A stretch of 64,000 nt of DNA. Source: Polytrichum commune. Its lineage: Eukaryota > Streptophyta > Polytrichopsida > Polytrichales > Polytrichaceae. How positions within the stretch are numbered: the first letter of the stretch is position 1; each line of letters starts with the position of its first letter. Positions 17,881 through 42,237 of the stretch are shown here, one piece after another. The translations under genes and the position numbers were made by a program. The stretch covers positions 16,430,001 to 16,494,000 of the forward strand of contig OX485803.1 of NCBI GenBank assembly GCA_950295325.1, read 5' to 3'. Under the pieces are notes generated by a model. It saw nothing but the letters and a program-made list of their open reading frames with translations. It was not told the origin of the DNA and did not search any database.

Positions 17881-18142
17881 CTAACAACCTTCAAAAACTC
17901 TCGAATGAAGTGGTGGTAGTAGTTGGCTAGGCCAACAAATGACCAAAGCCCTTTTTGAATGAAGGGCCAATTCTCCTTTTGGATTGCCTTCACATTCTTC
18001 ATGTTCGTCCACCAACTTCCTTTGTCACCACATACCTCAAGAACTCAATCTCTCGTTGAACAAAGTTGTTTTTCACTCCTTGGCGGTAACTTTTTGGGCA
18101 ACACATTGGTGAATACATCCTTTTATTTCACCAACATCCCAC

Positions 18143-21279: not shown

Positions 21280-21289
21280 ATGAGGCAGT
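21280..21289. repeat. Left 10-bp target site duplication of the MULE
   Basis: ATGAGGCAGT, identical to 42228-42237. It lies 12 bp outside the inverted motif TATGTGAGCG, at exactly the same distance as the right-hand copy. Confidence 0.88.
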
Positions 21290-21334
21290 GGGAAACTCAA
21301 GTATGTGAGCGTAGAGCGGAGAGCGGAGAGCATA
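21290..21334 (+). repeat. Left terminal inverted repeat of the MULE
   Basis: Contains TATGTGAGCG at 21302-21311, then GGAGAGC-type subrepeats ending GAGCATA at 21334. The inverse lies at 42175-42227. The outermost 12 bases match at only 5 positions beyond the shared GG start and spacing. Confidence 0.8.
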
Positions 21335-22530
21335 AATTTTTGGTATAAATTTTGACAGAAAGTGGGTGTATTACCGTGGGTTTAGGGGGTATTAGTAGAA
21401 ACATTTGTTGAAAAGGGAGCCCAATTCCGTTGAAATATACATAAATTAGGGCTGACGTCAGCACTATGTGAGCCCAATATCGTGCCCACATGCGTTCTTA
21501 ACATTAAAACTTATAAAGCCCTTGGTGGTGAGTGTTTCATTAAGGAGGTTCACATGTCAGGGGTGGAGTTAGATTCAGATCTATTATTTCAATCCTAACA
21601 CACCCTAGTATCAATGTCACATCACAATCTAAATGACTAACTATTCCATCATCTATTGTATTGCTTTGGGCTTCCTCCCCCTTATCTCACATTGGGTTCA
21701 ACCCTTTTAGGCATCGATATTAACTAACCCAGCTTAGCCTTAGTAGCAACCAGCAGCTTGGCTGCAACCAGAACCCAGCTTAGCCTTAATAGCAACCAGC
21801 AGCTTGGTTGCAACCAGAACCCAGCTTAGCCGCAGTAGTCCAGCAGCTTGGCTGCAACCAGAACCCAACTTAGTCTCAGTAGCACCAGCAGTTTGGCTGC
21901 AACCAGAACCCAACTTAGCCTCAGTAGCACCAGCAGCTCGGCTGCAACCAGAACCCAGCGCCGCAGTAGTCCAGCAACAACCTTAAGCTGCAATAGTCTA
22001 ATCCACACTTGCTAGTTAACCCCGCTAAGCCCCTAACTAACACCGCTAATTAACTTCACTAATTCGCTAAACATCCCTTCCTAATTCACACATTGTCCTA
22101 GCTCTAAGAGCTCAAGACTTCTAGAGAAGGGAATTAACTATACTTAAGGGCTAATCCACAAACTAATTAGATTAGCAGTAATAAATGAAGAATGCAATGC
22201 GGGTAGTATGAATTGGAGTGTATTGTGTGGTGTGCAACTTAAGTATTATTGAATACTTATGATTTAATGAAACAAGGAGGAGGTGTGTGAGGCACCAACC
22301 TTTTATTGGAATGGGTGTATGCTAGATTGTTTTGTGACTAGAAGTTAAGAGATCCGAACAATGAAGGAAAAATGAAGAATGCAATGCGGGTTGACATTAT
22401 GAATATGAAATAATGGAGAGAAAGAATGAGACTTGCGCCGGATATAAAAAATAAAACCAACATACAACTTTTTTTAAAGCCGGAAAACAACAACAAACTG
22501 AGTTATAATCTCCAACACCAAAATCATAAA
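21335..22530. other. MULE left subterminal region with minisatellite, no gene
   Basis: From about 21728 to 21985 there are roughly five imperfect units of about 45-50 bp built on CAGCAGCTTGGCTGCAACCA and CCCAGCTTAGCC. The phrase AATGAAGAATGCAATGCGGG occurs twice (near 22182 and 22370). Near 21466-21495 a short sequence resembles the start of the surrounding Ty3 element (TGTGAGCCCAA...GTGCCCACATG). I see no coding region here. Confidence 0.7.
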
Positions 22531-23246
22531 CTAAGGGCTTGGAGAACATTCCCTATCACTCTCCTCACCCTCATTTGCTTCTAGCAAGAAAAGATTTCGA
22601 GCTCCATGCGAGAAATGACGAACGCGAGGAGGAGGTGGGGACTCCGCCTTCGCAAAGCAATCCGCCATTGCACTAGCATACGGGGGAAGCTCAAATGGCT
22701 TCGGAGGACTTGAAAACATGTCTCGACGAATGACTGCGTCCTCCACTGGCTCTCTAAACACCCAAGCAAAAGGATTAGAAACATGATGACACTGGAAAAT
22801 GAGAACCTGAAATCAAGGCAAACATGGCAAAATATAGAAATCAAACTTACGCACAAAGGAATCCGAATGCCCGTTTGGTCATCTTCTGAGGAGGATCAAA
22901 GATAGATGTAGACGGTGCGGCAACTGAGCGAGATATACGCGCAGGCTGGAGATCGCGCATGGGGAGTAGGAGTGCATTGAAAATGATGGGGTCATTCTCA
23001 AGAGCCACAATATGCCGCTCAAGGGAGCGACATGCTGTAATCGAACTACCTAAAGCAAAGAGAGGTAAAATGTTAGTATGGAAACTAGTGAAGAAAAAAT
23101 AACCGAAAATTCAAAGTAAGGATGATGCTGAAAGAGAATGCGTACCTACACCACATTGCCAGTCCATAATAACATCATTCTTGTCGGTGATAGTAGCAAA
23201 AATGATAGAGAAAAAAACATGATGCTTTTCGCGAGCACCTCTCCAG
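22531..23246 (-). CDS. Methyltransferase motif I / SAM-binding part, last exons
   Basis: With the insertion removed, the exon reads through TITDKNDVIMDWQCGVG and is spliced to SSITACRSLERHIVALENDP. This is the glycine-rich SAM-binding motif I and the acidic loop after it, as in bacterial DNA adenine methyltransferases (canonical DPFxGxG ... GxE). Asp and GxG are kept; the usual Phe is replaced. The final two exons (23049-22851 and 22753-22531) add an acidic, Pro-rich tail ending at TAG 22531-22533. Confidence 0.78.
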
Positions 23247-23251
23247 GGTAT

Positions 23252-26200
23252 TGTCGCGGCCCGCCTTTTCTTAAAATCTTAAGAAACCTTGTTTTAAGAT
23301 TAAGGAATAGATTTGAGCGAGGAAAACATAATAAGTAGAGTACTTTATTGGTAGATTGTTAGGTAGGCTAGTAAGAATTGAGGAGAAAAACTAAAATCAT
23401 TAAAATAGTTAAAAATACCGAATTGAATTAGTGTTAGGAATTCCGTTTCGACTCGGAAACCTTAGAGCGGAGCGGACCGCAACCCCTATGGCCACCCAAA
23501 CACGGAAGCGGATCGCGGACAAGCCGCTAGCCCTCCGCAAGGTGCACGTGGTCACCCCCACTGGTCGAGAGGAGAACAATGAGTTGGAGGCAGACTTGAG
23601 GCGCATGGGCTGCCTCGGGTTATGGGAAGGTGAGGGAGTTGGTCACTGGGGAGGTGGACCAAGTTTACGCTTCCACCATCCGGGGTCGACCGGATAGGTG
23701 AAATGCGGAATTGTGGAGTCGGGTTTACGGGTTTAAGCAAGGAGGGGAAGGAATGACCACTAAGAGAGAGGATTGTACGAGGGACAAATTCTCCCAGAGG
23801 CTAGACCCCAAGTATGAATATTTTGTGAAGGATTGTAAAGATGAGAGGGAAAGGAGGATGTTAGCTTTTTTAGTATCTATCTTCAGCCTGGAAAAGCCTT
23901 ATAACATCACTCTTACCCTTGCCACCACCTTACTCCTTGCATACTCCGAGAATAAGGTGGTGGATTGGGGGAGCATCATTGGGGAGTTGGTGCACAAGTT
24001 GGCAACCAACACTAAGCGCGGCCAACCTTCCTACATTGGGTCTTTCCTCTTCAACCTTTATGCACACGAAAATCTATTCACGGACGAAGAGGACACCCTA
24101 TGGACATCGCATCAGTTCATGCGGGAGCTCCAGACTACCGACTCGGAGCCGGAGATGGGCCAGGAGGATTTGAAGGAGAAAGACGTGGTGGAAATGAGCG
24201 ACGAAGAGCGGCACGTGACCAAGAAGCGGAAACTAATGTTGGGAAATCGTGCGACGCGGACCAGGTCCGCCACCAAGCCGGTAGGAGGTGGAACCTCCAC
24301 CTTTCCCTTGGAGGACAATCCGGTGGACTCCATTATCCGCGACTTGGAGGGAGTACGGTCCCGGATTGTGGACTATGAGCTACAAATGCACCAAGTAGGG
24401 GAATTGGGAGGCAATCCGCCGCGGGAGAGTTTGGTTGCCGCAATAAAGGAGGCCATCCAAGATCCGCGTCGGTTGCGGGAGCTGGAGCGTAAAGTGGGCC
24501 ACCTTACTGCGGAAAAGCGGAAGACCGCGGAGCGAGTGTGGAAGTTCGAGGTGGAGCGAGAGAAGCTCCTTAAGCAGGTAAAGGATATCACTCTCACGGT
24601 ACACAAGTTGAGTGATATGGTGGAAATCCCGGGGAACGTGTGGTGGAAAGCCAAGATGTTCGACGCGGAATTGAAGAACGCGGGCTACGTTTCCGGGTCG
24701 AAGATGGTTACCTTCATCATGGATCAAGGGAGTAAGATGGACGCATCCTTGAAAGCAATGAAGGCCCTCATTGCTAGTTGCACGGAGTTATTTCCCATGG
24801 TAGTTGAATCATCGGAGGAGAGGGAGTCTTTATCCGGCTACTCCGACTTGACCCCTCATGACATGGTGGAAATTCAAGGTGCCGCGGTGAAAGATGGAAA
24901 CCAACATGCGGAAGAGGTGGACCAGGTGGAGGACATCACGGCGATCACGGCCCTCCCGGTTTTCACCACTGAGGTGTTAGTTCCCAATGCCACCCCAGTT
25001 TCCGCCGCGGTTGGAGAGGAAACCTTGGGTGATTGCCACGTGGCCGATGTCTCAACTCCAACCCTTGCCCCGGACTTCCAAGTGGTTGTCCGGGATCCGC
25101 CGCCACTTGCCATTCTTGCTCCGGAATTTCCGCCGAACAACCAACTATCCGCCCCACTGGTACCGGACGTTGCGGAAACGGTGGACCGCGTGGGAGTGAT
25201 TTCCGCGCCGAATGCTCCCGATGTGCAAGGGGCGCCACCACGTGCTCCATTTTTGGCACTGGACAGCGCGGACCACCGCGAGGAGCGGAAGCAGAATAAG
25301 AAGGAAGCCAAGTTGAAGAAGCGGAAGGATAAGGAATAGATTTTAGTTAGGATTCTATTTTGGATTGTTTTGGGCAAGTAGTTAGGTGGCCCCGGTTTGT
25401 GCGCCTCGTCATTTTCTTTGTTTGGGTTTTGACCTCTCCATGAGGTGGATTGTCAGGACTGCCACGTGGCCCGCGATTTCCAGCATAGAAATCATGGCAT
25501 GTGGGTGTTAGTTTGGTTTTAAAGGGAGAACACTTCGGTATTTCCCTCATCATTTTGCAATGCAAGTGTTCTTTTGTTCAATTCGGACCTTATGCTTTAC
25601 TTCACCTTCGGTTTGAGTTAAGTCTTGAGTACATGTGTAATGCAAGTGGTCCCTCTTTTCCGTACTTGAGGTTTCCGAGTTTTCCGCCATTCCCTATCAT
25701 TGTGTAGGTTAGTTAGGTTAGTTAGGTTAGTATTCCGTGATAGGACAGGGGGTCAGTAATACCCCGAGGTGCGTGTGGTTAAAACGCCCCTGTGTGAGCA
25801 GGTGATGGGCGGAGGAATCTTAAGCACGGAAAGGCGGAAAGGATTGGCCGAGCAAGGGGAAAGAACCCCACCGTGGGGTTGTTGGGCAAGGGAAGTTCCA
25901 CACACGCGGTAGGTTCTTCCCCACTTACTCCGTCCAACTAGGGACCGACAATGAGCAGCAGTGGATAGACCTGTCCAATAGTAGGGGGAGAGTTCTGGTT
26001 TACGCCTTCCGCTTGCCGTGACCTGGAGGTGGATCACACCGATCAGCAGTAACGGAATGGTCTAGAACACTCATGCACCTGCCGCGACTGGCGCTTGGTT
26101 CCCACCGCGGATGGTAGGCGTGGTAGCCCCATCCCTATGTTAGCCCCGCCGTCACGGAAATCAACAAACCTTAGATCCTATCTTGTGTGACCTGTGAAAC

Positions 26201-27041
26201 AGCACCAGCTACCCATTGTGAGGATAGGAGCGAAGATGTTGTGTTTCCACCTTTCTCGAGGGAGGATTCGGTTTCCGCGTGTGGTATAGTGGAAATTATG
26301 CCATCACGGAAACCAGATCAAGCTGGTTTTGTAGACCCAAAACTTCCTCCACATTTTCCCCTGTCAAAGGGGGTGGCATGCGTCGGATACTTGAGTGGGA
26401 CACCTTCCCAAGGGAGGGTTGCCCCCATCATAACACTAGTCTAAGGGAGTAATAGTTAGAAGGAGGAAGTGGAGATAGGGAGACAACCCTAAGAAATCAA
26501 CCCAGAGGGTGAAATCCTGATGAACAACTACCAAGTCTCTGTGAGCATTCTAGCCTAAACCCCTAGAATTATGGTCCTTGTGACACGGTCGAAAATATAG
26601 CGGATAGTGGAAATACAGGTAGGATCCGCTACCTCCATCGCGGAAACCTTATCCCGGAAGTCATGACCCGTAATAAGGAATCTTAGAATGGGGTGTATAT
26701 AGTTGTTATACTATGGATTTGGGACGCTGAGTCTATTGTTGTTACTACTCTAGGGTGGGAGCTTGTCCATACTTTGTGTTGTGTTCCCTACCTCGGTCCA
26801 CTACCGGGAAGGCGGAAATTTCCGTGCTATAATTTCCGTAATATCCCGGATTTCTTAATCCGCTTTGTGCTATCTTAGTTTCTGGTGTTTCTTGTGTGTG
26901 TGTGTGTGTTAGTCAAAGATTTCCTCTCTCTTGTATTGTAAACAACCGCAGGTTCTTCGTGGGAACGAACTCGGCGCGGTTTTAACATTTTACGCGTTAA
27001 TTAGGTTAATTAACTGAATACGTTACCACCGTGCTACGACA
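23252..27041 (+). mobile_element. 3.79-kb insertion with LTR-like ends and 5-bp target duplication
   Basis: It begins TGTCGCGGCCCG, ends CGTGCTACGACA, and is flanked by GGTAT on both sides (23247-23251 and 27042-27046). Removing it with one GGTAT restores the reading frame of the methyltransferase exon exactly, which proves insertion into coding DNA. TG...CA ends plus a 5-bp duplication are typical of LTR retrotransposon integration. I see no pair of direct LTRs inside, so it may be one very long solo LTR or a non-autonomous derivative. It carries one long ORF and a GT microsatellite near 26893-26910. Confidence 0.85.
23753..25339 (+). CDS. 528-codon ORF of the 3.79-kb element, function unknown
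   Basis: An intact ORF from ATG 23753 to TAG 25337-25339. The first 130 residues are helical and rich in hydrophobics (TLATTLLLAYSENKVVDWG region). They recall the putative plant transposon protein domain found with some Ty3 elements, but the match is only by pattern. A highly charged segment follows (codons about 145-200), then a likely coiled coil (about 235-300, with LERKVGHLTAEKRK), a Pro/Val-rich part, and a Lys-rich C-terminus (KKEAKLKKRKDK). There are no Cys/His fingers, protease or polymerase motifs. Codon use is GC-richer than the surroundings. The long open frame suggests it was recently active. A gag-like or DNA-binding role is speculation. Confidence 0.7.
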   Translation: MTTKREDCTRDKFSQRLDPKYEYFVKDCKDERERRMLAFLVSIFSLEKPYNITLTLATTLLLAYSENKVVDWGSIIGELVHKLATNTKRGQPSYIGSFLFNLYAHENLFTDEEDTLWTSHQFMRELQTTDSEPEMGQEDLKEKDVVEMSDEERHVTKKRKLMLGNRATRTRSATKPVGGGTSTFPLEDNPVDSIIRDLEGVRSRIVDYELQMHQVGELGGNPPRESLVAAIKEAIQDPRRLRELERKVGHLTAEKRKTAERVWKFEVEREKLLKQVKDITLTVHKLSDMVEIPGNVWWKAKMFDAELKNAGYVSGSKMVTFIMDQGSKMDASLKAMKALIASCTELFPMVVESSEERESLSGYSDLTPHDMVEIQGAAVKDGNQHAEEVDQVEDITAITALPVFTTEVLVPNATPVSAAVGEETLGDCHVADVSTPTLAPDFQVVVRDPPPLAILAPEFPPNNQLSAPLVPDVAETVDRVGVISAPNAPDVQGAPPRAPFLALDSADHREERKQNKKEAKLKKRKDKE

Positions 27042-27288
27042 GGTATCCCATCACTACGCATCGCCTGACTCTTCTCATCGGTAAAAATATTCAACCATCC
27101 ATCTCGCTGGAGGTTGTAACCATACTCTTGCATGGCCTCCTCACGCACTTTGAGAACGGAGTTAATACGAACAAGAACCTTGATGTTGAATTTCCGAGTC
27201 TGAAAAAAACAAAACGATTTCATAAGACTCGGAAGAAGTGAAATAAAAAGCAAAATAAAATCGGAGTAGGAGATGGAGAGTAGCTTAC

Positions 27289-27624
27289 AATTCCAGAGGG
27301 GACCACAAGAGATTGGAGGTCCATATCATTCATACCGAACCAATCTTCGGCGACGTAGAAGTCGTACGTGTGTGCCCAATCGAAAACAATCCTAGAAACA
27401 CTGGCACTCGCACAATGGGCTAGGACAAGGACACCATGATCATAGAGGTTAGATTTCGCAAATGCAAAAAGACACTCATAATATGATTCATGTAGCTTGT
27501 TCCAAGCAGGAACATCGGTGGAGATGTTGGGCACCGGCAAATTCTCGGGAATGTATGCGAAGAGCAAATCGAGGCCCTTGTGAGTTGTAGTCAAGGTGTT
27601 CACACGGGAACGACCTGCCCCAAC
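27289..27624 (-). CDS. Methyltransferase motif IV exon, catalytic motif degenerate
   Basis: The exon encodes GLDLLFAYIPENLPVP, which lines up with the catalytic region of DNA adenine methyltransferases (vDLxxxDPPY). Here the DPPY tetrad reads AYIP, so the usual catalytic residues are absent. It is followed by a helix and a strand (DHGVLVLAHCASASVSRIVF) as in the fold. With motif IV before motif I, the order is that of beta-class enzymes. The protein may have lost catalysis and kept DNA or SAM binding. Confidence 0.65.
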
Positions 27625-28869
27625 CTACAATTAAAACTACATGAAAAAACAAGAGGAAGGAAAAAATAAACAAACCAAAAGGAAAGGAGTTTGAAAAATG
27701 AAGAAGGGAAAAATACAAACTTTGGCAATGAACTCCTGGATGCGCGTATATGCCGGGAGGGGACCTCCTGCAAGCTCAGAATCGAGCATGAGTTGGACCA
27801 TGTCCACATTTTTTATGAGGGCAATAGTGTTAGGCGACTCTGAAGAGGTGGCACTCGTATCCAAGAGGGCGGCCTTCCTCTTGCGAGGCAAGGATAGAAG
27901 AGAAGTGCCACTGTGAGAAGGAGTAGCAATAGTTTGTGGACGAGATGCTGAGGGAGTAATAGAGGGGGCAGCTGATGGAGCCACGGAGGGAGTGCTAGAT
28001 GGACTCTGTAGGAGGGTGGGTGGTTGAAGGGGGATCTTTGAAGCAGACCGAGTGGGAAGGTGGGAAGTTGCTTGAGTGCCGGTATTCTTTGCTCTGCCCT
28101 TTCCCTGTGGTGCCTTGGGTTTAGGAGGAGGAAGCTCAATGATGTCGGGTTCTTCAAAGGGGACAATGTTTTCCTCGGGAGCAGTACTCATAATGCTGGA
28201 AAAAAGAGGCTTCTCTTCCGCATGCACAAATCCTCCAGAACAATCCAAGTACCATCCCCCAGCCTGCAAGTGAGACTCCGGAAATTTGGCAACTTGCATA
28301 GCCGTATACACACAAAGATTGGAGTTGACATCGACCCAATCTACAAGGAAAGTTGGCAAGCACGAAGAAGGCATAACATTCTTTGCAACGAGCTCACGGT
28401 GAATGAACCTGGAAAATGAAGAACATCATGAATAAAAACGGTGGCGGAAAGGTAATAAAACGAAAACAATATGTACTAAATGAAAACTCAAAATATTACC
28501 GGTAAGTGACGCGTTCGATTGATATGGGGCCTTCCTCAAATTCCATGAGATCAAGGCCTTTGACAAATTTAAGATCTCCCTTGTCGTCAAAATAAACCAA
28601 AAATGCCTTGTCCCACAGAATCAGCCTCTAATGCTCAACATAATTGGCCGGTTGGAAAATATCTTCCATGGAACCCCAATCGATTTCAACGGAACACTCA
28701 TTTTCAAATGAAGCAATCTCAGCCTCAACCCCCTTCTCCAACTATGACAAGAAAGAAAAATAGTTAGAAATGTAAAGTAGAGAAATGAACAAATAGATAA
28801 CTTAGAAATCTCAAACTATCACTAGACTCGACATTTGAAACTCAAACATGGCCGAGATGGTGCCCAAGT

Positions 28870-30590
28870 CCTTACAAATTCTCAAATATGACACTAGCCT
28901 AGAAATCAGAAGCTCAAACATGGCCCTTGAAAATCCAGATTTCCCCACCCTAAACAGTAGCCTAGAAATCAGAAACTCAAACATGGCCCTTTGTAAAACC
29001 ACATTTCTGCACCCTCTCGGAACCGAGAGGGTGCCAAAGTCCTTACAAATTCTCAAATATGACACTATCCTGTAAATCAGAAACTCAAACATGGCACTTG
29101 AAAATCCACATTTCTGCACCCTCTCGGAACCGAGAGGGTGCCCCAGTCATTACAAATTCTCAAATATGACACTAGCTTAGAAATAAGAAACTCAAACATG
29201 GCCCTTGAAACTCCATTTTCCCCCATCTAAAATATGACACTAGCCTAGAAATCAGAAACTCAAACATGGCCCTTGAAAATCCATATTTACCCATCCCAAA
29301 TATGACACTAGCTTAGAAATAAGAAACTCAAACATGGCACTTGAAATCCACACTTCTGCACCCTCTCGGAACCGAGAGGTTGCCCAGTCCTTATAAATTC
29401 TCAAATATGACACTAGCCTAGAAATCAGAAACTCAAACATGGCCCTTGAAAATCCATTTTTCCCCATCTAAAATATGACACTAGCCTAGAAATCAGAAAC
29501 TCAAACATGGCCTTTGAAAATCCATATTTACCCATCCCAAATATGACACTAGCTTAGAAATAAGAAACTCAAACATGGCACTTGAAATCCACATTTCTGC
29601 ACCCTCTCGGAACCGAGAGGGTGCCCAGTCCTTATAAATTCTCAAATATGACACTAGCCTAGAAATCAGAAACTCAAACATGGCCCTTAAAATCCACATT
29701 TCTGCACCCTCTCGAAACCGAGAGGGTGCCCAGTCCTTATAAATTCTCAAATATGACACTAGCCTAGAAATCAGAAACTCAAACATGGCCCTTGAAATCC
29801 ACATTTCTGCACCCTCTCGGAACCGAGAGGGTGCCCAGTCCTTATAAATTCTCAAATATGACACTAGCCTAGAAATCAGAAACTCAAACATGGCCCTTGA
29901 AATCCACATTTCTGCACCCTCTCGGAACCGAGAGGGTGCCCAGTCCTTATAAATTCTCAAATATGACACTAGCCTAGAAATCAGAAACTCAAACATGGCA
30001 CTTGAAATCCACATTTCTGCACCCTCTTGGAACCGAGAGGGTGCCCAGTCCTTATAAATTCTCAAATATGACACAAGCCTAGAAATCAGAAACTCAAACA
30101 TGGCACTTGAAATCCACATTTCTGCACCCTCTCGGAACCGAGAGGGTGCCCCAGTCCATACAAATTCTCAAATATGACACTAGCCTAGAAATGAGAAACT
30201 AAAAAAGGGCACTTGAAAATCCACATTTTCCCACCCATGACACTAGCCTAGAAAACAGAAACTCAAACATGGCCCTTGAAAATCCATATGTACCCATCCC
30301 AAATATGACACTAGCTTAGAAATAAGAAACTCAAACATGGCCCTTGAAAATCCATTTTTCCCCATCTAAAATATGACACTAGCCTAGAAATCAAAAACTC
30401 AAACATGGCCCTTGAAAATCCAGATTCCCCCACCTTCAACACTAGCCTAGAAATCAGAAACTCAAACATGGCCATTTGAAAAACCACATTTCTGCACCCT
30501 CTCGGAACCGAGAGGGTGCCCCAGTCCTTACAAATTCTCAAATATGAAACTAGCCTAGAAATAAGATACTGAAATAGAGAAAGGAATAAA
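28870..30590. repeat. Satellite array of about 105-bp units in intron 6 of the ParB-methyltransferase gene
   Basis: Units share TGACACTAGCCTAGAAATC, AACTCAAACATGG and the near-palindrome CCCTCTCGGAACCGAGAGGG (9-bp arms, AA loop). Around 29493-30120 at least five units are nearly identical. The array lies between exons 30835-30617 and 28741-28500. Minus-strand open frames across it come from the 105-bp period, which is a multiple of three. Confidence 0.92.
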
Positions 30591-31488
30591 CAGAGGGAAA
30601 AATATTGTAGATGCACCTGAGCCCAGAATGAAGCTTTGTTGAGCCAGTTTTCGAGGACTTTCTCCCTAAGAGGGAGAGCCGATGGAAATCTATTCTTATC
30701 TTTGACCTCGGCAGGGGAGTTCCACCAACGAAGCCACTTGGCCTTGAAGTGGGGATCCACATGTGCGGTGGCCACCTTGTGAAGTTTTTCGATTGTCATA
30801 TCAGTGACGAGGAAGGTGGAGAAATGACGGTCAATCTGCCACATACAAGAGTGATAAGTAAGAAAGAAATATCAAGCACGAGAGGATTTATAGGAGAATG
30901 AAAAACTAAATGAAAATACAAAGATAGCAGAGTCACCTCGTTGAAGAAATCATCACCGTTGTCCTTGTGGGCAACGGAAATGAACTTCTCAAAGTTCCGA
31001 GAACGAATGCTTTTGATCAACCTATCCTGGGCTTTTGTCATAGCATCCCAAATTTCTGGCGCTGATCTGAGAGCCTCGGGAGTGGCCTCACGGTATAACC
31101 TTGCCGCCGTATCAGCCGCGTTGGATATCTCCCTCTGAATCAAACAAAAAGAAGGATAAGGAACGCACATAAACATGGGAGAAGCAAAGTCAAGGAAAAT
31201 TTACACAAAATTTTCCTTGTATAAGAATTTGACGAAGACGTCTAATGTAAGGGGATACCAAGTAGGATTCTTCTCCATCTTGGACTCACACATCTTGTAG
31301 TCTGCAACGGAAAGGAGGTCTTTAAACTCCTCTAGCCTCATCTTCCCAAACGTCCGAATGCGAAGTAACTTGGCGGGCAGGTTGTCCTTAACATGGTCAT
31401 GCTCCGTGGACCTAAACAAAGAAAATGTTAGGGGAAAAAATGCGAAAAAACAAAAGACAAGCACAACAACATAAAATGTCAAACTCAC

Positions 31489-32066: not shown

Positions 32067-32374
32067 CTACAAAAAAAAATGCAAAGCATAAGATGATAAC
32101 ACAAAAACCAAATATACAAGAATCTGAATTAAACATTGATACAACAAAAAAATACCAACAAAGCTCAACGAATTAAACACCTCTCCCTGTGAGATGTCAT
32201 CAAGAGCCGCAATGAGAGCCACAGGAGGCGACAATGGAACATCGACATCTTCCATTAAGTGCACAAGTGATACAGGAAGAGCCAAAGCCTGCGATGCCTG
32301 CATAAACAAAATACACCTTAAGAAACCAGACTTGAAATTGAAAACATCAAACCCTCCCTCATAATACCGACAAT

Positions 32375-35300
32375 GCCCATCCTCTCGGAACCGAGAGGGT
32401 GCCCCAGTCCTTACAAATTCTCAAATATGACACTAGCCTAGAAACCAGAAACTCAAACATGGCACTTGAGAACCCACATTTCAACACCTTCTCGGAACCG
32501 AGAGGGTGCTCCAGTTCTTACAAATTCTCAAATATGACACTAGCCTAGAAATCAGAAACTCAAACATGGCACTTGAAAATCCATATTTCCCCACCCTCTC
32601 GGAACCGAGAGGGTGCCCGAGCCTTACAAATTATGAAATATAACACTAGCCTAGAAATCAGAAACTCAAACATGGCACTTGAAAATCCATATTTCCCCAC
32701 CCTCTCGGAACCGAGAGGGTGCCCCAGTCCTTACAGATTCTGATATATAACACTAGCCTAGAAATCAGAAACTACAAAAGGGCACTTGAAAATCCATATT
32801 TCCCCACCCTCTCGGAACCGAGAGGGTGCCCCAATTCTAACAAATTCTCAAATATGACACTAGCCAAGAAATCAGACACTCAAACATGGCACTTGAACAT
32901 CCATATTTCCCCACCCTCTCGGAACCGAGAGGGTGCCCCAGTCCTTACAGATTCTGAAATATAACACTAGCCTAGAAATCAGAAACTACAAAAGGGCACT
33001 TGAAAATCCATATTTCCCCACCCACTCGGAACCGAGAGGGTGCCCCAGATCTAACAAATTCTCAAATATGACACTAGCCAAGAAATCAGAAACTCAAACA
33101 TGGCACTTTAAAACTCATATTTCCCCACCCTCTCGGAACCGAGAGGGTGCCCCAGCCTTACAGATTCTGAAATATAACACTAGCCTAGAAATCAGAAACT
33201 CAAACATGGCCCTTTGTAAAACCACATTTCTGCACCCTCTCGGAACCGAGAGGGTGCCCCAGCCTTACAAATTCTCAAATATGACACTAGCCTAGTAATT
33301 AGAAACCCAAATATGGCCCTTGAGAATCCAGATTTCAGCACCCTCTCTGAACCGAGAGGGTGCCCCAGTCCTTACAGATTCTGAAATATCACACTCTCCT
33401 AGAAATCAGATAATCAAACATGGCACTTGAAAATCCATATTTCCCCACCCTCTCGGAACCGAGACGGTGCCCCAGTCCTTACAGATTCTGATATATAACA
33501 CTAGCCTAGAAATCAGAAACTACAAAAGGGCACTTGAAAATCCATATTTCCCCACCCTCTCGGAACCGAGAGGGTGCCCCAATTCTAACAAATTCTCAAA
33601 TATGACACTAGCCAAGAAATCAGACACTCAAACATGGCACTTGAACATCCATATTTCCCCACCCTCTCGGAACCGAGAGGGTGCCCCAGTCCTTACAGAT
33701 TCTGAAATATAACACTAGCCTAGAAATCAGAAACTACAAAAGGGCACTTGAAAATCCATATTTCCCCACCCACTCGGAACCGAGAGGGTGCCCCAGATCT
33801 AACAAATTCTCAAATATGACACTAGCCAAGAAATCAGAAACTCAAACATGGCACTTTAAAACTCATATTTCCCCACCCTCTCGGAACCGAGAGGGTGCCC
33901 CAGCCTTACAGATTCTGAAATATAACACTAGCCTAGAAATCAGAAACTCAAACATGGCCCTTTGTAAAACCACATTTCTGCACCCTCTCGGAACCGAGAG
34001 GGTGCCCCAGCCTTACAAATTCTCAAATATGACACTAGCCTAGTAATTAGAAACCCAAATATGGCCCTTGAGAATCCAGATTTCAGCACCCTCTCTGAAC
34101 CGAGAGGGTGCCCCAGTCCTTACAGATTCTGAAATATCACACTCTCCTAGAAATCAGATAATCAAACATGGCACTTGAAAATCCATATTTCCCCACCCTC
34201 TCGGAACCGAGACGGTGCCCCAGCCTTACAAATTCTCAAATATCACAATAGCCTAGAAATCAGATAATCAAACATGGCACTTGAAAATCCATATTTTCCC
34301 ACCCTCTCGGAACCGAGAGGGTGCCCAAGTCCTTACAAATTCTCAAATATGACACTAGCCTAGAAATCAGAAACTGAAACATGGCCCTTGCAAATCCAGA
34401 TTCCCTCACCTAAAACACTAGCCTAGAAATCAGATATTCGAACATGGCCCTTGAAAACCCACATTTCGACACCCTCTCGGAACCGAGAGGGTGCCCCAGC
34501 CTTACAAATTCTGAAATATAACACTAGCCTAGAAATCAGAAACTCAAACATGGGTCTTGAAAATCCATATTTCCCCACCCTCTCGGAACCGAGAGGGTGC
34601 CCCAGCCTTACAAATTCTGAAATATAACACTAGCCTAGAAATCAGAAACTCAAACATGGGGCTTGAAAATCCATATTTCCCCACCCTCTCGGAACCGAGA
34701 GGGTGCCCCAGCCTTAGAAATTCTCAAATATGACACTAGCCTAGAAATTAGAAACTCAAACATGGCCCTTGAAAATCCAGATTTCCCCACCCTAACCACT
34801 AACCTAGAAATCAGAATCTCAAACATGGCCCTTTGTAAAACCACATTTCTGCACCCTCTCGGAACCGAGAAGGTGCCCCAGCCTTACAAATTCTGAAATA
34901 TAACACTAGCCTAGAAATCAGAAACTCAAACATGGCAATTGAAAATCCACATTTCTGCACCCTCTCGGAACCGAGAGGGTGCCCAGTCCTTACAAATTCT
35001 CAAACATGACAGTCGCCTAGAAATCTGAACCTCAAACATGGCACTTGAGAATCCAGAAATGAGAGATGGTGGAGGCTCCTTGCCTCTGCCGGGCGATAGT
35101 GGGGGCTCCTGGCTCCTCCCTCCGAACGACCTATTCGCAAACTTTCTTCTCAAACTCTCTTTGCAAACTTTAGTTAGGTCAGGCCCTAGGGTTGCTTCTA
35201 GTAGTTGGTTCCCACCTAGCCGTATGATTAGGGGCATCGGGGGTGGACCCCCTCGACATGTTTTCAAACTCTAATTAGGTACTAGGTGCCATGGTCACTA

Positions 35301-36020
35301 GCCTAGAAATCGTAAACTCAAAGATGGCACTTGAAAACCCACATTTCAGCACCCTTTCGGAACCGAGAGGGTGCCCCAGCCTTACAAATTCTCAAATATG
35401 ACACTAGCCTAGAAATCAGAAACTGAAACATGGCCCTTGCAAATCCAGATTCCCTCACCTAAAACACTAGCCTATAAATCAGATAATCAAAGATGGCCCT
35501 TGAAAACCCACATTTCGACACCCTCTCAGATCCCATAGGGTGCCCCAGCCTTACAAATTCTGAAATATAACAGTAGCCTATAAATCATAAACTAAAAAAT
35601 GGCCCTTGAAAACCCACATTTCAACACCCTCTCGGAACCGAGAGGGTGCCCAGTCCTTATAAATTCTCAAATATGACACAAGCCTAGAAATCAGAAACTC
35701 AAACATGGCACTTGAAATCCACATTTCTGCACCCTCTCGGAACCGAGAGGGTGCCCCAGTCCTTACAAATTCTGAAATATAACAGTAGCCTAGAAATCGT
35801 AAACTCAAAAATGGCCCTTGAAAACCCACATTTCGACACCCTCTCGGAACCGAGAGGGTGCCCAGTCCTTATAAATTCTCAAATATGACACTAGCCTAGA
35901 AATCAGAAACTCAAACATGGCACTTGAAATCCACATTTCTGCACCCTCTCGGAACCGAGAGGGTGCCCCAGTCATTACAAATTCTCAAACATGACAGTAG
36001 CCTAGAAATCTGAACCTCAA
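32375..36020. repeat. Satellite array of about 100-105-bp hairpin units in intron 1
   Basis: The same unit as at 28870-30590, with CCCTCTCGG-AA-CCGAGAGGG followed by TGCCCCAG in most copies. It fills most of the 4.3-kb first intron (36621-32298). Near 36362-36395, at the exon-1 side of the intron, a single CCCTCTCGGTTCCGG half-site exists outside the array. A segment of about 230 bp unrelated to the unit occurs twice (35033-35290 and 36017-36271), so part of the array was copied as a block. Confidence 0.92.
32719..34214. repeat. 748-bp higher-order duplication inside the satellite
   Basis: Sequence from about 32719 recurs from 33467 with no difference I can see over 748 bp (about seven basic units), including variant bases such as CCCACTCGG and GAGACGGTG. 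This is a recent block duplication by unequal exchange. Confidence 0.88.
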
Positions 36021-36621
36021 ACATGGCACTTGAGAATCCAGAAATGAGAGATGGTGGAGGCTCCTTGCCTCTGCCGGGCGATAGTGGGGGCTCCTGGCTC
36101 CTCCCTCCGAACGACCTATTCGCAAACTTTCTTCTCAAACTCTCTTCGCAAACTTTAGTTAGGTTAGGCGCTAGGGTTGATTCTAGTAGTTGGTTCCCAC
36201 CTAGCCGTATGATTAGGGGCATCGGGGGTGGACCCCGGAGACATGTATTCAAACTCTACTAGGTACTGGGTGCCATGGTTGCTAGTTGGCGGCCTCGCAC
36301 AAATTTGTGATGAGCTGAAAGCCTAGTTGCGGTGCCACACTATGACAATCTCGTACATATTCTTTGACCCTCTCGGTTCCGGTTATATACTCCCCTCTCA
36401 CTAACTTCAACATCTGATGATGGACTCATTTAAACAAAATGAGAACTTTCTACAATTGTCTTTTTGGGGAACATTCCACACAACATCAGTGGTTGGTTTA
36501 TGGGTCATTTTCCAAATCCATTCAACATGTACTTCATGAAGATTCACATTAGATAACTCAATTTCAAATGCCATTTTTTAAATAACCTAAATGTATATCT
36601 GTCCCTAGTGCCCAAACTTAC

Positions 36622-36966
36622 TGTGCTAATTGAGTCCTCTTTTGTCTCCTCCTCCAATCCGCTCATATCGGAATTGCTTCGATGCTCGCTCTCTGCCATC
36701 GATGGTTCGCGTGATCCACTGTGCTCCCTTTCTTCCTCTATCCGTTGCAATTCCTCGTTCCTGCTAGATGTCCTTGTCTCAGACTCTCCGCCCGTCTTGC
36801 TCAAATCTGTTGGTGGGTCACTTCCCTGTGTACACGTTTGCTCCTTCTTCCTAAGTTCTCTCCGTCGCCTCTGTTTTGAATTGCTAAAACTCGTCCCTCC
36901 CTTTCTTTTCTTCCTCTTTCTTCCAGGATCGGATGTGGAGACTAGACTATTTCTTGGTTCCTTCAT
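36622..36966 (-). CDS. Exon 1 of the ParB-methyltransferase gene, nuclear-targeting N-terminus
   Basis: ATG at 36966 opens 115 codons that end at a perfect AGCACA/GTAAGT donor, phase 0. The first 45 residues carry two basic clusters, RKRKKRKGG and KQRRRRELRKK, which look like nuclear localisation signals. The rest is Glu/Ser-rich and disordered. Assignment to this gene rests on strand, phase and the absence of any other acceptor-led reading; a missed small exon in the satellite-filled intron is possible. Confidence 0.7.
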
Positions 36967-37299
36967 GTGTGCGTCCCGGTTTCCCAATACTTCTCTCTCT
37001 CCTATCCTCTTCTCTTAGGGCATCGCTCTGCTTCACTCAGATACTAACCCTTTCCTTTCCTTGTATTGTTCTTTATATTGCCAGTGCTTGAGGGTTAGGG
37101 TTTCCCTCCTTCTGCCAGCCATGCATTGTTTTCCCTTTTTGGCATCCTTCCTCTAATCTTTATATATCAACATAGCTTCCTCGTCATCTGTGCCTTCCGT
37201 TTTGGACATGGTGACATCACAATGTTTGATTCTTGACCATTCTTCTTCTTTATGTATCTATGCATCTTTGTTCCTTTGCGTTTGTATTTTTCTGCCTTC
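36967..37299. promoter_or_regulatory. Bidirectional promoter between ParB-methyltransferase and transposase genes
   Basis: 333 bp separate the two divergent start codons. On the plus strand CTTTATATATCAAC at about 37158-37171 could be the TATA box of the transposase gene. On the minus strand TATAAA at 37077-37072 could serve the ParB-methyltransferase gene. Shared control would couple expression of both proteins. Start sites are not known. Confidence 0.55.
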
Positions 37300-40200
37300 A
37301 TGGCGTCCACCGCAATGGCCGAACTTCGTTCCCATGGCATCGGTGTCCCTATTCTATTCCCCATTGATGAACATGGTATTGCTGCTATCTCTGACCTTCA
37401 TCTTAACATTAGGTTCTCGTTGAAAGCTAGTACAATTTGGGTAGAACGTGAGATCTTCAATCCTGATACTGAATTGGTCGTTCAAACCTTGCATGAGACC
37501 TCCAAACTAACTGACAATGGCAATATCATATGGGAGCTTGGCGTGGGAAAGTATAGGGTTTATGGCCTTCCCGATTCTCAGATGGGAGTGTCACGAGAAA
37601 TTCTTACTCCTCTTCGATCATCCACTTCTTCCTTAAGCACCCCGCCGGTAATAAGTGTCAAGACGGAGCCAGATGTGGACAACGTTATAGACTTGTCTGA
37701 TTCTTCGAACGAAGATGTACCAGTGCAGAAGGCTGCTGTTCATGATTCCCCTCCTTTGTTTCCCTCTGCTTCCTATGTAACGCCTTCTCCTTCTCGCTCT
37801 GTGCCTTTAACTCCTTTGGTACCGTCTATGTCCAAACCTCCTCAACCTATAGTTCAATGTCTTCGTCGTCTTGGTTCTATGCCCGGTAGTAAGAGCGTCC
37901 TCAAGAAAATAGATTACGATAAACTCAAAATCCAAGAGGTTAATCACCTTCCCCCTCGTTTCGATGGTACCCAGTTATTTGTCCTCCCTGCAGCAGAAGT
38001 CTCATCATCTCAAACTAGGGCCAAGTCTATGGACGGCATGGACAAGCAATATGATGGCCATGTTTGGACGAAGACTCAAACCACCAACATTACAAACGAC
38101 GTTGGCCTTTCATTTCGTTCCTCTACCTGTGTTGGCCATCTCCAATGCCAAAACCCGAATTGTGATTACCTTCAACGCGCCCATCGTACCTCTAAGGTCA
38201 ATGACACGGAATTTGATGGTTTCACTAAAGAGCCTTTCCCTCTCTCTGGCATTGTGCCATCCGGATGTACTATTGTGTGCAGGCTCTGCAAAGAGCCTCC
38301 CAAATGCATTGCACTATGCGAGGCGAAAATATTCTACGTCCACGGGAAGGAGTCCTCCCAAAGAGCCTGCATTCATATCGGAACTCATCAACATCCAGTG
38401 AAGGTTGGAGACTGCAGAGACAGCCGAAAGCGTATCAATGCACTTCTCAAGGAGCACGTTGATCGTACGCCTCAAGCCACGCATAGCAAGATCGTCCTTG
38501 AAGCCAGCAAGGACATTGTTGGTGAGTTCCTCCTTTCTGGCGATAATGACACACACCGTCTCCTCTCCCTAAAAGAGCTGGAACCTGTGTTTGATAGCTA
38601 TAGAGAGTTGAATTCCCCAAACCTTCGATCTAAGGTTACCTCTTTCAAATATTTGCGGAGGTTTGGTGTTATGGATGGCATCACAAAGCTCCGAGGCGTT
38701 AGCAATTGGGCCTACGTCCAACGGAACCAATTCCCAGGACAAGGTGACGATGCGGACAAGGTGTTCGTCTTCAAGATGTCGGAGGTTGGTCCTGGAAGTG
38801 GTGTGGATTTGGTTCGTCGGATGCAACCGGGTGGAGACCTTGAGAACGCGTGGATGATGTCTGATCACGTGAAGCGGGTCAAAGGGTGGACCACCATGGC
38901 CGCTCATGTGTACGATGGGACTTATCAACGGGTCATGACCATTTCATGTTGTGATTTCCAATCGGAGGATAAGGATGCCCAAGTGCTCTTCTGGCAGAAC
39001 CTGAACCACGTCATGGCCCGCCATGGTATCCCACATCCAACCTTTATTGGCTTCATGGCGGACAGTGCGCAAGCCAATTGGAACGTTGTGCGCATTGTGT
39101 ATGGTTCAGGAGATCCCAAAGTTCCAATGGAGGGCCGTGAGCGCACTTGTTTTTTCCATTGGAAACAATCGCTCGAGAAACATACGAAATCGTATATAAA
39201 GCATGAGTTACAAGACCAACATAAACACCTTTGCCTTCAATATCGGAATGCGTCATCTATGGAAGAGGCGGAGACTAGGTACCTAGCTATCAAGGCTTGG
39301 TGGGCATCATCGAATTGTACTTCTGAGGACGGTCTCAAGCACCTCCACCTCTAGCTTGCTTTTTGGCACTTCCGCTACCTTCAATGGGGTGGTTTCATGG
39401 AACTGGTACATCCCCTTTATGATTCATTCTTGTTTTATCCTGGAATTAGTTTCCTCTCTCTGTACTCCCTCTAATACTCCTTCTGTACTCTCCAATCAGG
39501 AAAAGATTTTGACCCAAGACCAGTTGGCCGAGATGCCGTCGTGCAATCTTGCGGAGTCCGTCCACAACAAGTGGCTTCAAGCCTCCGGCAACAAGGGTGG
39601 AGATCTATACGTGGCTACCGTGGACGACTACATTCGCGCCTTCCTACAAGTTGTTGCATACTACCAATTCCTTAAAGGTGGAATTGGCGGAGATGGTCCA
39701 AGCAAAGAAGAACTGAAGCTCAGGGGTGCTCAACGTCGAGCTCAGCGTACTGGCGACCCCACAGTGTTGCAGAAGGTCTTGCTTGACATGCCCGGTGGGG
39801 AAGAGTTTTGCACTCGCGATCCACACCTTAAGGGCGCCGAGGTGTTTGGATCGCAGAAGCGAAGACCGGACACTCCAATTGGTAGTGATGGCGAGACCCA
39901 CCGCCCCGATACCGTCAACTTCTCTCGCCCTCCCCCCGCTAAACGAGTCACTCGATCTCAACCAGTACCACTACCTACTATCATTGAGGAGTCCTCCCCG
40001 TCTGTACAAGAGGTTCAAGTGCCTTCTCCAGCAGGAATTGGTTTTCATCGTGTCACCGCCGTACAAGAAACCAAAGTAGATGTTTCTCTTTGGCACATTG
40101 CCCGCATACCTCATACCTCTGGGAAGTCTTGTTGGGCTAATCATGCTGGCACGAAGAAGAAGTGCACCGCAAGAATCATCACCAATAATAAGAGCATTCC

Positions 40201-40957
40201 TGCGCTGACCTACACCGGTATGTGGCATCATTACACACTCCAAGCGGAGAAGCGCATGGACTTTGTCTTTTGCCCAGACGACATCGAGCGTTGTGTAAAG
40301 AGCCCTCGTCGGAAATGGGTCATGTCGTTCTCTGCTAATGATCAAAAACCTCCTATTCCCCCAATCTGGCCTGTCAAGATTGGTACCAACCTCACCCGTT
40401 CGGAGATTTTCGCACTTGAGAACGCAGGTTTTCAACTCCCACCAAAGGAGCGCATCCCACCAACTCGACTCTTCACCAACTCCGCTCCCCCACTGGATAT
40501 GTCTGGAATCCGTATTCCAGACAACCCAGACTTCATCCCTCCGACAAGATTGTCCAAGGTTGTTCGACGATCCAGCAGCGCACCTTCGGCAAAGCAGAGG
40601 CAGATGGTTGCCTCTGCTGTAGCTATGCATGGTACTGTTATGAAATTAACTATGATCCCTCAACCGGGCTTTGGTTGCATTATCACTCTGCAGTCCAAGT
40701 CAGAACCGCAACCTCCCATTTACCAAGTGACAGTGAGTTCTCTTCCGGAGTGCAATTACGCATGCTTCTTGGATATGCTTTCCAAGTTCGGCCGCAAACG
40801 AAATTCTTATCTGAATTGTAAGCATCTCTATTACATCTTCATCAAGGTTTCTAATTTGGATCCGGAAGTGAATTTGTTCATTCACGCCCCGACCTTTAGC
40901 TTCAATGAAGTCAAACTCATCCTCGAAGGGGGCCTCTTGACACAGTCTACTTCCTAG
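37300..40957 (+). pseudogene. Mutator-like (MULE) transposase
   Basis: Two exons, 37300-39405 and 39500-40957, join in phase 0 (CTG/GTACAT ... CCAATCAG/GAA) into 1,187 codons. In order: a Ser/Pro-rich N-terminus, a WRKY/GCM1-like zinc-binding region (CVGHLQCQNPNCDYL, then C..C and HIGTHQHP), a DDE core and a C-terminal SWIM finger (PECNYAC ... NCKHLYYI). The core shows Asp in YDGTYQ, Asp in FMADSAQANW, the CFFHW motif and Glu in NLAESVHNKW. This is the standard MULE transposase plan for cut-and-paste transposition. TAG at 39352-39354 (codon 685) interrupts it. The context HLHL-stop-LAFWHF suggests a former TGG (Trp). Start chosen at ATG 37300 (MASTAMAEL) because the longer frame upstream has no ATG and overlaps the promoter. 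Diverges from the ParB-methyltransferase gene. Confidence 0.88.
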
Positions 40958-41173
40958 AATTCCTCTCAGCCTAGCACTACATTTTGTCCTCATGGATGTG
41001 GTCAGTTCTGGACCGAATGTGAACTCATAATTGATTGCTATAATAAATAAAATTACATGGATGATTTTTATTCACTTCAAAATTTTGTATTACAGTACAC
41101 AATGTGTCATGTGTGTCTCTCCCGGTTGAACATTTCATGTTCAATTTGAAGGTACTACCTCTGTCTATCAAAT

Positions 41174-41671
41174 CTACTTCCATTTCGCCAACCTCCTAGA
41201 TGTTTCATCGTCCCTTCTTGATGGAGGTGGACCCGGTCGAAGCAAATCAATATAAGAAACTCTTTTATCTCTCATTCGATCCTTCAGTGGACGACGATGC
41301 GGCGACAATCCTCTCATTCTCTCGCGAAACGACAAAGACCTCGAAGATTCGCCTACTACCTTCACCTCTTCCTTCCCGTTTGACGTTTTTTCTTCATTCA
41401 AATCAGCGTCTTCATTCACATCAGCGTCTTTATCCTGCACATCCGCTCGCGTTTTTTTATTCTTTGCATATTGTTTCTGCTCCTCCTGCATCCTCCACCT
41501 CCATGCTTGTGTGGACTGCGAAAATGGAGTCATCTCGTAGTCATCACTACATTGCTTTCCAGCACCGTTGTCATGTACCGGCGATGTATTAAAAGAAATA
41601 TGGGGATCTCCTAGACTTCTAATCTCCTTCTCCTATCCTAGGCCAGCGAACATGTCTCTCTCCTCTCCCAT
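41174..41671 (-). pseudogene. Small charged protein gene of the MULE, family unknown
   Basis: ATG at 41671 opens a 166-codon frame with one internal TAG at codon 13 (41635-41633) and a final stop at 41174. After the TAG the frame is long and protein-like: a mixed start (SLGDPHISFNTSP), a Gln/Lys-rich helix (QEEQKQYAKNKK), an acidic Asp/Glu segment, then a basic Arg/Pro tail (RERMRGLSPHRRPLKDRMRD). I do not recognise it. It converges with the transposase gene, 216 bp away, and lies inside the MULE ends, so it is probably a third element gene. If the TAG is real, translation could begin at a later ATG such as 41533. Confidence 0.55.
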
Positions 41672-42174
41672 TGTGTCCCTAAACCCTCTACCTCCGTATT
41701 TGATATGAGTATAACTTCTATCCTTATGTATATTGAGCTGAAGATAATCTCTTCAACCACAAACAATAATTGTGCGAGTCCAAGCTCTATAGTTGACTCA
41801 CACATAAGACAAATATAAAAGTGATGGAATAAAAACCAAGCAAGTTGGTCGCCATTTGTATTTTGATTGACTCATTCTTCAATTATACCAAACTCGAAAA
41901 AATCATTTTCAGATATTCTTTTTTGGAAGCACCCTTGATTTAAATCATATACTTATCTATTTTATCATAGTTTTTATATCAATTTTTCACTTCCTGGTTT
42001 CCAAATTTAACGAGTCCATTTCAAATTCACGTCATTTTAATTTATTTTTGGACCTAACCATTCCACGGAAATAGGTCATACATTTTTACTATTTTTAGAA
42101 TATTATAGGTATATTCGTTACTATTTTAAAATTTCCTAAATTTAGTATGCCAATTTTGCTATTTCTACTTCCTC
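41672..42174. other. MULE right subterminal region, AT-rich, no gene
   Basis: AT-rich sequence between the small gene start and the right inverted end. It probably includes that gene promoter. No repeats of note. Confidence 0.6.
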
Positions 42175-42227
42175 TATGCTCTCCGCTCTCCAAATCTCCG
42201 CTCTCCGCTCACATAGAAGTGTCGTCC
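42175..42227 (-). repeat. Right terminal inverted repeat of the MULE
   Basis: Read inward on the minus strand: GG plus 10 bases, TATGTGAGCG (42215-42206), then GAGAGCGGAGA, an 8-base expansion, and GCGGAGAGCATA. It pairs with 21290-21334. Confidence 0.8.
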
Positions 42228-42237
42228 ATGAGGCAGT
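42228..42237. repeat. Right 10-bp target site duplication of the MULE
   Basis: ATGAGGCAGT, the same as 21280-21289. The flanks outside both copies are G-rich on the plus strand, as expected if they were once contiguous. Confidence 0.88.

Follow-up and report, generated by a model that had tools for sequence, protein, structure and literature searches.

A 64,000-nucleotide stretch of the Polytrichum commune genome (contig OX485803.1; hereafter, the window) contains, at positions 21290 to 42227, a Mutator-like element (MULE) of the autonomous type, in which a transposase gene lies divergent to a multi-exon accessory gene. The N-terminal half of the accessory protein is predicted to have a ParB/sulfiredoxin fold, and its C-terminal half reads by profile as a beta-class DNA methyltransferase domain. 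Tandem arrays of a palindrome occupy the 5' region and one intron of this gene, and across copies of the element the type of palindrome goes with the type of ParB half. These arrays, which the initial annotation of this DNA overlooked, are the strongest clue to mechanism. We consider it probable that the ParB protein is self-recognising, acting on the iterons of its own element and serving in anti-silencing of the kind provided by VANC.

Palindrome arrays of the accessory gene

Palindrome A, CCCTCTCGG-AA-CCGAGAGGG (written whole, CCCTCTCGGAACCGAGAGGG), occurs 39 times with at most one mismatch, and once more with four, in the 5' region and intron 5 of the accessory gene (Table 1); it was found nowhere else in the window. 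Using an anchor outside the palindrome, we located 54 array units, of which 39 carry the palindrome (26 exact, 12 with one mismatch, and 1 with four) and 15, including 13 short units, lack it. Among the 39 units of 100 to 112 bp, 38 of them with the palindrome, it is the best-conserved 20-column stretch. Palindromes also account for 77 of the 94 array CpGs. We considered and dropped the idea that this conservation reflects ascertainment, because the units were found via an anchor outside the palindrome.

The genome containing the window comprises 407.8 Mb, 406.1 Mb of it in seven large contigs. Genome-wide, 1,484 exact copies of palindrome A were counted, versus none of a reversed control; among the first 100 palindromes listed, 98 fell into two clusters, each holding a match to the accessory gene. 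In the seven stretches scanned, palindrome arms of at least 10 bp were confined to arrays assigned to accessory genes, and arms in other arrays reached at most 7 bp.

Association of palindrome type with ParB type

Six further copies with the left end of the window element (c2 to c7) were retrieved, and 30 kb was read for each. In five genes (c1, c2, c4, D2, and E), the ParB half is of A type, with exon 2 at 86-99% to the window. All five have palindrome A, at 28 to 54 copies each with at most two mismatches, and none has palindrome B, GAGGCCTCGGATCCGAGGCCTC. Four genes are of B type (c5, c6, c7, and a second gene in the c5 region; exon 2, 61-68%); all four have palindrome B, at 5 to 10 copies each, and none has palindrome A. 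A C-type gene (exon 2, 36%) is accompanied by GTTTGGGTCGNNCGACCCAAAC, present 20 times, and by another 28-bp palindrome, present 7 times. This comparison was made without c3, the second genes of the c2 and c7 regions (ParB exon 2 outside the stretch), and the c7 flank; neither a ParB half nor a palindrome was found in the 30 kb of c3.

Palindrome A accompanies three methyltransferase types (exon 8 at 90-100%, 80%, and 61%), and exon 8 of the B-type copies is at 81-92%; palindrome type thus goes with the ParB half, not with the methyltransferase half. A wider pairing of exons 2 and 8 was drawn from genome matches, of which 150 of 1,252 candidates for exon 2 and 150 of 960 for exon 8 were scored. 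Among 97 scored pairs, A-type ParB halves occur with three methyltransferase classes (7, 16, and 8 pairs), B-type halves with two (43 and 6), and an intermediate type (70-80%) with one (17). Another 52 exon 2 matches had no scored exon 8 nearby; the tables hold 149 of the 150 exon 2 rows, one row on contig C61 being omitted.

Outside the ParB half and the arrays, the parts of the window that align with c5, c6, and c7 are 84-98% alike, the single exception being a c5 segment at 74.6%. In all three comparisons, position 37236 marks the end of the divergent block. Judged from these alignments, the ParB half and its array differ as one cassette between otherwise mostly alike elements. Between A and B types, exon 4 is saturated for synonymous divergence; the value is about 0.56-0.60 for exon 7 and 0.13-0.21 for exon 8. 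The outer flanks of repeat units that retain the palindrome are hardly alike, with the observed score reached by 40, 29, 104, and 10 of 500 shuffles.

It is distinctly unlikely, in our judgment, that the arrays are ordinary minisatellites whose match to the ParB type reflects hitch-hiking of adjacent DNA. In its favour, this DNA is rich in tandem repeats, the array sits next to the ParB half and differs together with it as a single cassette, and some of the sequence flanking the palindrome is shared as well. Yet the long arms are found, in the stretches scanned, only in accessory gene arrays, the CpGs of the arrays lie mainly inside the palindrome, and the palindrome is kept while most of the repeat unit is replaced.

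Several observations weigh against a functional coupling of palindrome and ParB half. Sharing extends in part to the 22 bases that adjoin the palindrome (20, 15, 14, and 11 of 22), and the flanks of c7 and of the second c5-region gene are weakly alike. Arrays had been predicted in advance for D1, D2, and E, and two of the three had them; D1 showed no palindromic array in the 10 kb read, and its ParB exons 1 to 3 were not found there either. Palindromes unlike A had also been predicted for these copies; D2 and E both had palindrome A, with A-like ParB halves (88% and 86%). Along contig C1 to 34.62 Mb, taking the palindrome listing to run in order of position, exact palindrome A lies within 10 kb of the window copy and of one intermediate (79%) copy; it was found within this distance of none of five B-type copies, and it was also not found near one A-like copy (81%). 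In some within-group exon comparisons (exons 4, 7, 8, and 9), the ratio of nonsynonymous to synonymous substitution rates (dN/dS) is 0.3-0.9; between lineages, it is 0.12-0.34 in exons 8 and 9. The independent lineages are few, and the stretch searched per gene was set by the analyst. Finally, the ParB half and arrays adjoin, and linkage alone could carry both together. We regard linkage as insufficient because one palindrome persists in largely unrelated repeat units.

A separate array flanks c7 on the left, some 0.7 kb from C4:50962513-50963088. It has units of 70 to 81 bp with a shortened relative of palindrome A, CTCTCGGAACCGAGAG, and adjoins a ParB exon 2 at 76%, as expected if motif and ParB diverge together. 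The c7 flank has three A-like palindromes outside the element.

The accessory gene and its predicted protein

The accessory gene lies on the minus strand and has GT/AG splice sites; of the nine exons first read, exons 2 and 6 each contain one in-frame stop. Exon 2 alone has 169 relatives, and similarity ends at the same splice site in 36 of them as aligned (by eye). The full-length spliced protein had no homologue at E values up to 10 among the best 7,995 candidates scored of 5.8 billion proteins, probably because the database holds unspliced frames. Single-sequence searches of Pfam, PHROGs, and PDB gave nothing useful for the window proteins, and relatives were needed for domain calls because the window copy lacks an intact methyltransferase end. 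Scans of viral contigs and prokaryote genome contigs confirmed no relative at the sensitivity of those scans, and hence no donor is seen.

The initial annotation had described a gene of bacterial or phage flavour, which agrees with both halves of the protein. For the N-terminal half, a ParB/sulfiredoxin fold is predicted: the model of exon 2 has a predicted local distance difference test score (pLDDT) of 83.7, ParB and sulfiredoxin head its Foldseek list, also on a second look, and a GNHR motif is kept among relatives. Sequence profiles revealed no known domain in the exon 2 relatives.

By profile, the C-terminal half is a beta-class (DpnA/CcrM-like) DNA methyltransferase domain. A ten-sequence profile of this half matches DpnA (1.3e-4) and CcrM (0.0022), the underlying alignment having one surplus glycine where two exons join and beginning its c5 row with two assumed residues; a diverged relative (38% alike in exon 8) matches DNA methylase PF01555 at 9.6e-7 with the uncertain junction residue masked. 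These matches argue against a misreading of the domain, an explanation that we dropped. Other copies extend beyond window exon 9 with W-R-G-A-R-E-K and then D-W-Q-C-G-V-G-G-S, which we take to be motifs X and I. The permuted motif order, IV followed by X, I, and II, is that of beta-class enzymes, and GxG is kept (DWQCGVGGS).

Motif IV departs from the canonical (D/N/S)PP(Y/F/W), whose aromatic residue contacts the flipped base. It reads D-[IV]-P-E in 18 of the 26 copies read, DPP plus an aromatic residue in none of the 26, and has Y in place of D in the window copy. Methyltransferase activity is doubtful because no copy read has DPPY; the non-canonical motif makes methylation less likely. With motif IV so altered, a binding or S-adenosylmethionine (SAM)-sensing role for this half seems somewhat more likely than catalysis. 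In the earlier term "DNA-modification-type protein", "modification" is possibly the wrong word.

These features bear on a self-marking alternative, in which an active adenine or N4-cytosine methyltransferase is recruited to the arrays through the ParB half and leaves a mark that blocks silencing or labels the element. We regard it as possible but doubtful. It draws on the beta-class motif order with GxG kept, the profile match to DpnA and CcrM, the low dN/dS between lineages in exons 8 and 9, and a proposal by the authors of a study on Ectocarpus that such proteins may modify their own transposon (PMC12477816); it is opposed by the motif IV counts.

Transposase, boundaries, and copies of the element

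The initial annotation had proposed a transposase with zinc finger, DDE, and SWIM regions, and this plan holds across the family. With the first coding exon, 82 relatives were found. When the window sequence was aligned with 29 relatives, the zinc-finger cysteines and histidines proved largely invariant across the 30 members, and D519, D585, and C-x2-H of the core are invariant or nearly so. The window transposase has one stop in frame and a tyrosine for the second SWIM cysteine. A C-terminal SWIM pattern is present in P0005 and P0077; SWIM PF04434 was matched at 6.8e-5 in 1 of the 30 members, and Transposase_mut reached only 0.034 in one. The predicted model (mean pLDDT, 71.5; predicted template modelling score, 0.43) has the strand order of an RNase-H fold (beta-beta-beta-alpha-beta). 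The zinc finger matched a GCM domain in Foldseek with a probability of 0.98 (E, 0.008) and WRKY with 0.85 (E, 0.15). The transposase model had no Foldseek match reaching an E value of 0.001, and no clear RNase-H-fold transposase match to the core was seen among the 50 matches listed. Zinc finger and C-x2-H are marks of MULEs, and the element is best called a MULE because these transposase features combine with 10-bp duplications.

The boundaries initially proposed were upheld. The 10-bp direct repeat ATGAGGCAGT occurs only twice in the window, directly flanking the element, and the identical inverted sequence TATGTGAGCG starts 12 bp inside each end, from position 21302 on the plus strand and at 42206-42215 on the minus strand. 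The chance of a shared 10-mer per position pair more than 5 kb apart is about 5e-6 (9,586 of ~2.05e9 window pairs). The window inverted repeat spans 33 bp on the left and 41 bp on the right with one 8-bp gap and one mismatch; in the three elements examined, terminal inverted repeats are imperfect and 20 to 41 bp long. Target duplications of 10 bp, within the 8 to 11 bp of MULEs, are present in three elements, namely, the window element, c7, and a C-type element described below. We rejected the view that the element is an artefact of nested transposons, given that a second copy and a second family have duplications of their own. The size of 20.9 kb first given needs correction: the element proper is about 17.1 kb because a 3,790-bp nested insertion with a GGTAT duplication sits in exon 9. 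With this insertion and in-frame stops, the window copy is dead. No long terminal repeat (LTR) pair was found in the insertion; it has TG...CA ends and a 545-amino-acid open frame and is perhaps a solo LTR or another element.

That further copies share the ends of the element, as anticipated, is borne out by 44 matching stretches genome-wide for its left 311 bp, many of only ~40 bp and some being pieces of one copy, and by c7, which is 15,224 bp long, has its own 10-bp duplication, GAATCAGGCC, and ends in a right terminus closely similar to that of the window. A duplication is demonstrable in two of the seven copies sharing the left end (the window and c7); within 30 kb, none was found for c2 to c6. 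Right-end-like sequence is present in c5 without a matching duplication, the match in c2 is 36 bp only and in reverse orientation, and no right end was found in c3, c4, and c6 within the 30 kb read. Close to the left end (window 21726-21959) lies a 45-bp tandem repeat that is free of long palindromes and is also present in c2 and c3.

Table 1. Features of the window element, with positions in the window
Feature	Position	Strand	Basis
Target-site duplication ATGAGGCAGT, left copy	21280..21289	none	sequence repeat
Left end: imperfect outer 12 bp followed by inverted repeat TATGTGAGCG...GGAGAGCGGAGAGCATA	21290..21334	+	
Accessory exon 10: methyltransferase motif I/II region	22862..23050	-	tblastn with exon of other copies
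Accessory exon 9, distal piece severed by nested insertion	23144..23250	-	
Nested 3,790-bp insertion, duplication GGTAT, ends TGTCG...CGACA; outside transposon proper	23251..27040	none	
Accessory exon 9, proximal piece	27041..27199	-	
Accessory exon 8: methyltransferase motif IV region, AYIPEN in window copy	27289..27624	-	
Accessory exon 7: linker; contains homology step between ParB half and methyltransferase half	27721..28408	-	
Cassette (ParB half and arrays), unalignable to B type except ~66% ParB exon matches; left edge approximate	28300..37235	none	
Accessory exon 6; one in-frame stop	28500..28741	-	
Tandem array in intron 5, 10 palindromes CCCTCTCGGAACCGAGAGGG	28850..30577	none	
Accessory exon 5	30617..30835	-	splice-site reading
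Accessory exon 4	30937..31134	-	splice-site reading
Accessory exon 3	31207..31411	-	splice-site reading
Accessory exon 2: predicted ParB/Srx-fold domain with GNHR; one in-frame stop	31489..32066	-	
Accessory exon 1 as read; further 5' exons may precede	32181..32297	-	
Tandem array 5' of accessory gene, unit ~107 bp, 29-30 palindromes	32376..36042	none	
Transposase exon 1: GCM/WRKY-type zinc finger, start of DDE core; frame interrupted by one stop	37300..39405	+	
Transposase exon 2 as read: remainder of DDE core and SWIM-like C terminus; approximate at 3' end	39500..40957	+	
Right end, inverted with respect to left end	42175..42227	-	
Target-site duplication ATGAGGCAGT, right copy	42228..42237	none	sequence repeat

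Elsewhere in the window, a gag-like frame of an LTR retrotransposon (by eye) lies at 43611-44948, ~1.4 kb past the right end of the element. A 501-amino-acid leucine-rich-repeat-like frame (by eye) at 17959-19464 is made of 72-bp tandem repeats (18.5 copies), and a second tandem array lies at 14500-14940.

Gene pairing and a second family

Transposase and accessory gene had been expected to stay together in other copies. This was true of c5, c6, and c7, three of the six copies fetched, and of a second family, but not of c2, c3, and c4: no transposase was found within 30 kb in c2 and c3, and c4 has only that of a nested member of the second family. In other samples, a transposase and a ParB protein were both matched on contigs of 5,609 bp and both on contigs of 674,632 bp, a coincidence that hints at linkage there and was given no weight. 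The nested member in c4 is a complete C-type element of 13,429 bp inside the A array, with inverted ends and the duplication CTCTCGGTTC. It encodes a transposase (44%) and the C-type ParB-methyltransferase protein, and palindromic arrays of its own separate the two genes. The second family is 36-44% identical to the window family and has its own ends. Because it independently has transposase, accessory gene, and iterons, we regard the three as one unit.

A passive role for the ParB-methyltransferase gene, as cargo captured in the way of Pack-MULEs, appears very improbable. MULEs capture genes readily (PMC6446971), but this gene is present in many copies (150 scored matches for each of exons 8 and 2), is constrained at the protein level, and adjoins the transposase gene in the second family as well.

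The CTCTCGGTTC duplication of the C-type element (c4, C2:44.45-44.48 Mb) sits within a palindrome A. Of the three elements whose duplication is proven, this one and c7 (C4:50.96 Mb) lie in or beside the iteron array of another such element, and it is possible that insertions target iteron arrays. Such targeting would suit an alternative that we consider unlikely, namely, that the arrays serve the transposase or maintenance of the element, with the ParB protein pairing ends, picking targets, tethering, or partitioning and silencing being unrelated. ParB relatives segregate DNA, which also speaks for it. However, the palindromes are central and intronic and do not lie at the element ends, and arrays are large targets, so the nested insertions may be chance.

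With regard to spread, an 18-Mb region of contig C4 (41-59.1 Mb) holds 44 of the 149 scored exon 2 matches, including 31 of the 56 intermediate-type (70-80%) copies, a number of these with stops; it is rich in old copies and perhaps non-recombining, such as a sex-linked region. In eight B-type copies (e.g., C1:62616940), exon 8 matches the window at 94%, always with the same score, and the frame is open for 180 to 452 amino acids; this suggests recent spread.

Relation to known systems

ParB recognises a palindromic site, parS. Fusions of ParB to N6/N4 methyltransferases are reported to be frequent in phages and on mobile elements (PMC12704722). The window gene resembles them in its ParB fold, N6/N4-type methyltransferase half, palindromic candidate site, and mobile setting; unlike them, it is spliced, resides on a MULE with tens of sites, and has an altered methyltransferase motif IV.

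A similar arrangement has been described in algae. Sola1-1_Ec32 of Ectocarpus is a 21.5-kb DNA transposon with a 1,104-amino-acid ParB-like and N4C/N6A-type methyltransferase protein encoded opposite the transposase strand, and related green and red algal transposons also carry ParB and methyltransferase genes (PMC12477816). The giant size, the union of both domains in one protein, and the opposite strand are shared with the window element, whereas the transposase of Sola1-1_Ec32 belongs to the Sola1 superfamily and its host to another lineage; the two are likened here by description and not by sequence. In its accessible part, that account mentions neither palindromic iterons nor cassette exchange.

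The VANDAL elements offer a functional parallel, being MULEs with an accessory protein, VANC, and motif arrays in introns and an upstream region. The targets of VANC are tandem repeats in the VANC and VANB introns and upstream of VANA; VANC causes methylation loss on its elements, and motifs and protein change between families (PMC5735166). As far as the same source goes, VANC has DUF1985 and DUF287, with no ParB fold or methyltransferase reported, and its motif, YAGTATTAY, is non-palindromic. The spliced, broken window protein had no Pfam match to DUF1985 or DUF287 at E values up to 10. Anti-silencing has been demonstrated for VANC; for the ParB protein it is our reading of the likeness, and binding is predicted. 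TET/JBP genes lie near transposase genes in KDZ and other fungal transposons (PMC12730594); they too are DNA-modification-type genes near a DNA transposase, but encode an unrelated enzyme, a dioxygenase.

In the literature searched, with most subscription journals outside its coverage, we found no described MULE with ParB-methyltransferase cargo, in agreement with the initial annotation, and no palindrome arrays tied to such cargo. What appears to be new here is the MULE host of the ParB-methyltransferase gene and the palindrome coupling; ParB-methylase genes in algal transposons were already known.

Proposed mechanism and significance

Given the coupling between palindrome and ParB type, the best explanation is recognition: the ParB half, probably dimeric, would bind the palindromes of its own element much as ParB binds parS, and from these sites it may load and spread. 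The accessory protein would thereby coat the intergenic and 5' region between the two genes. Because arrays in an accessory intron and between divergent genes resemble the targets of VANC, we infer anti-silencing or transcriptional self-support by the accessory protein; the coating would keep the element expressed and mobile, as VANC does for VANDAL MULEs. A more specific version, that this is a transposon-borne eukaryotic ParB-parS-like system in which ParB-plus-iteron cassettes are swapped and the methyltransferase has perhaps lost catalysis, is a real possibility that falls somewhat short of an even chance.

To our knowledge, few cases of transposon escape from host silencing are understood at the molecular level, that of VANC being one. 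The accessory protein described here would add, VANC aside, a second, unrelated protein with a matched target, a simple palindromic one, in a genome with many related copies. Its altered methylase motif poses the question of whether such a protein modifies DNA or only recognises it. If the ParB half reads the palindromes, a bacterial plasmid-partition module would be tied to a eukaryotic mobile element, and its swappable ParB-iteron cassettes would constitute natural orthogonal DNA addresses in eukaryotes.

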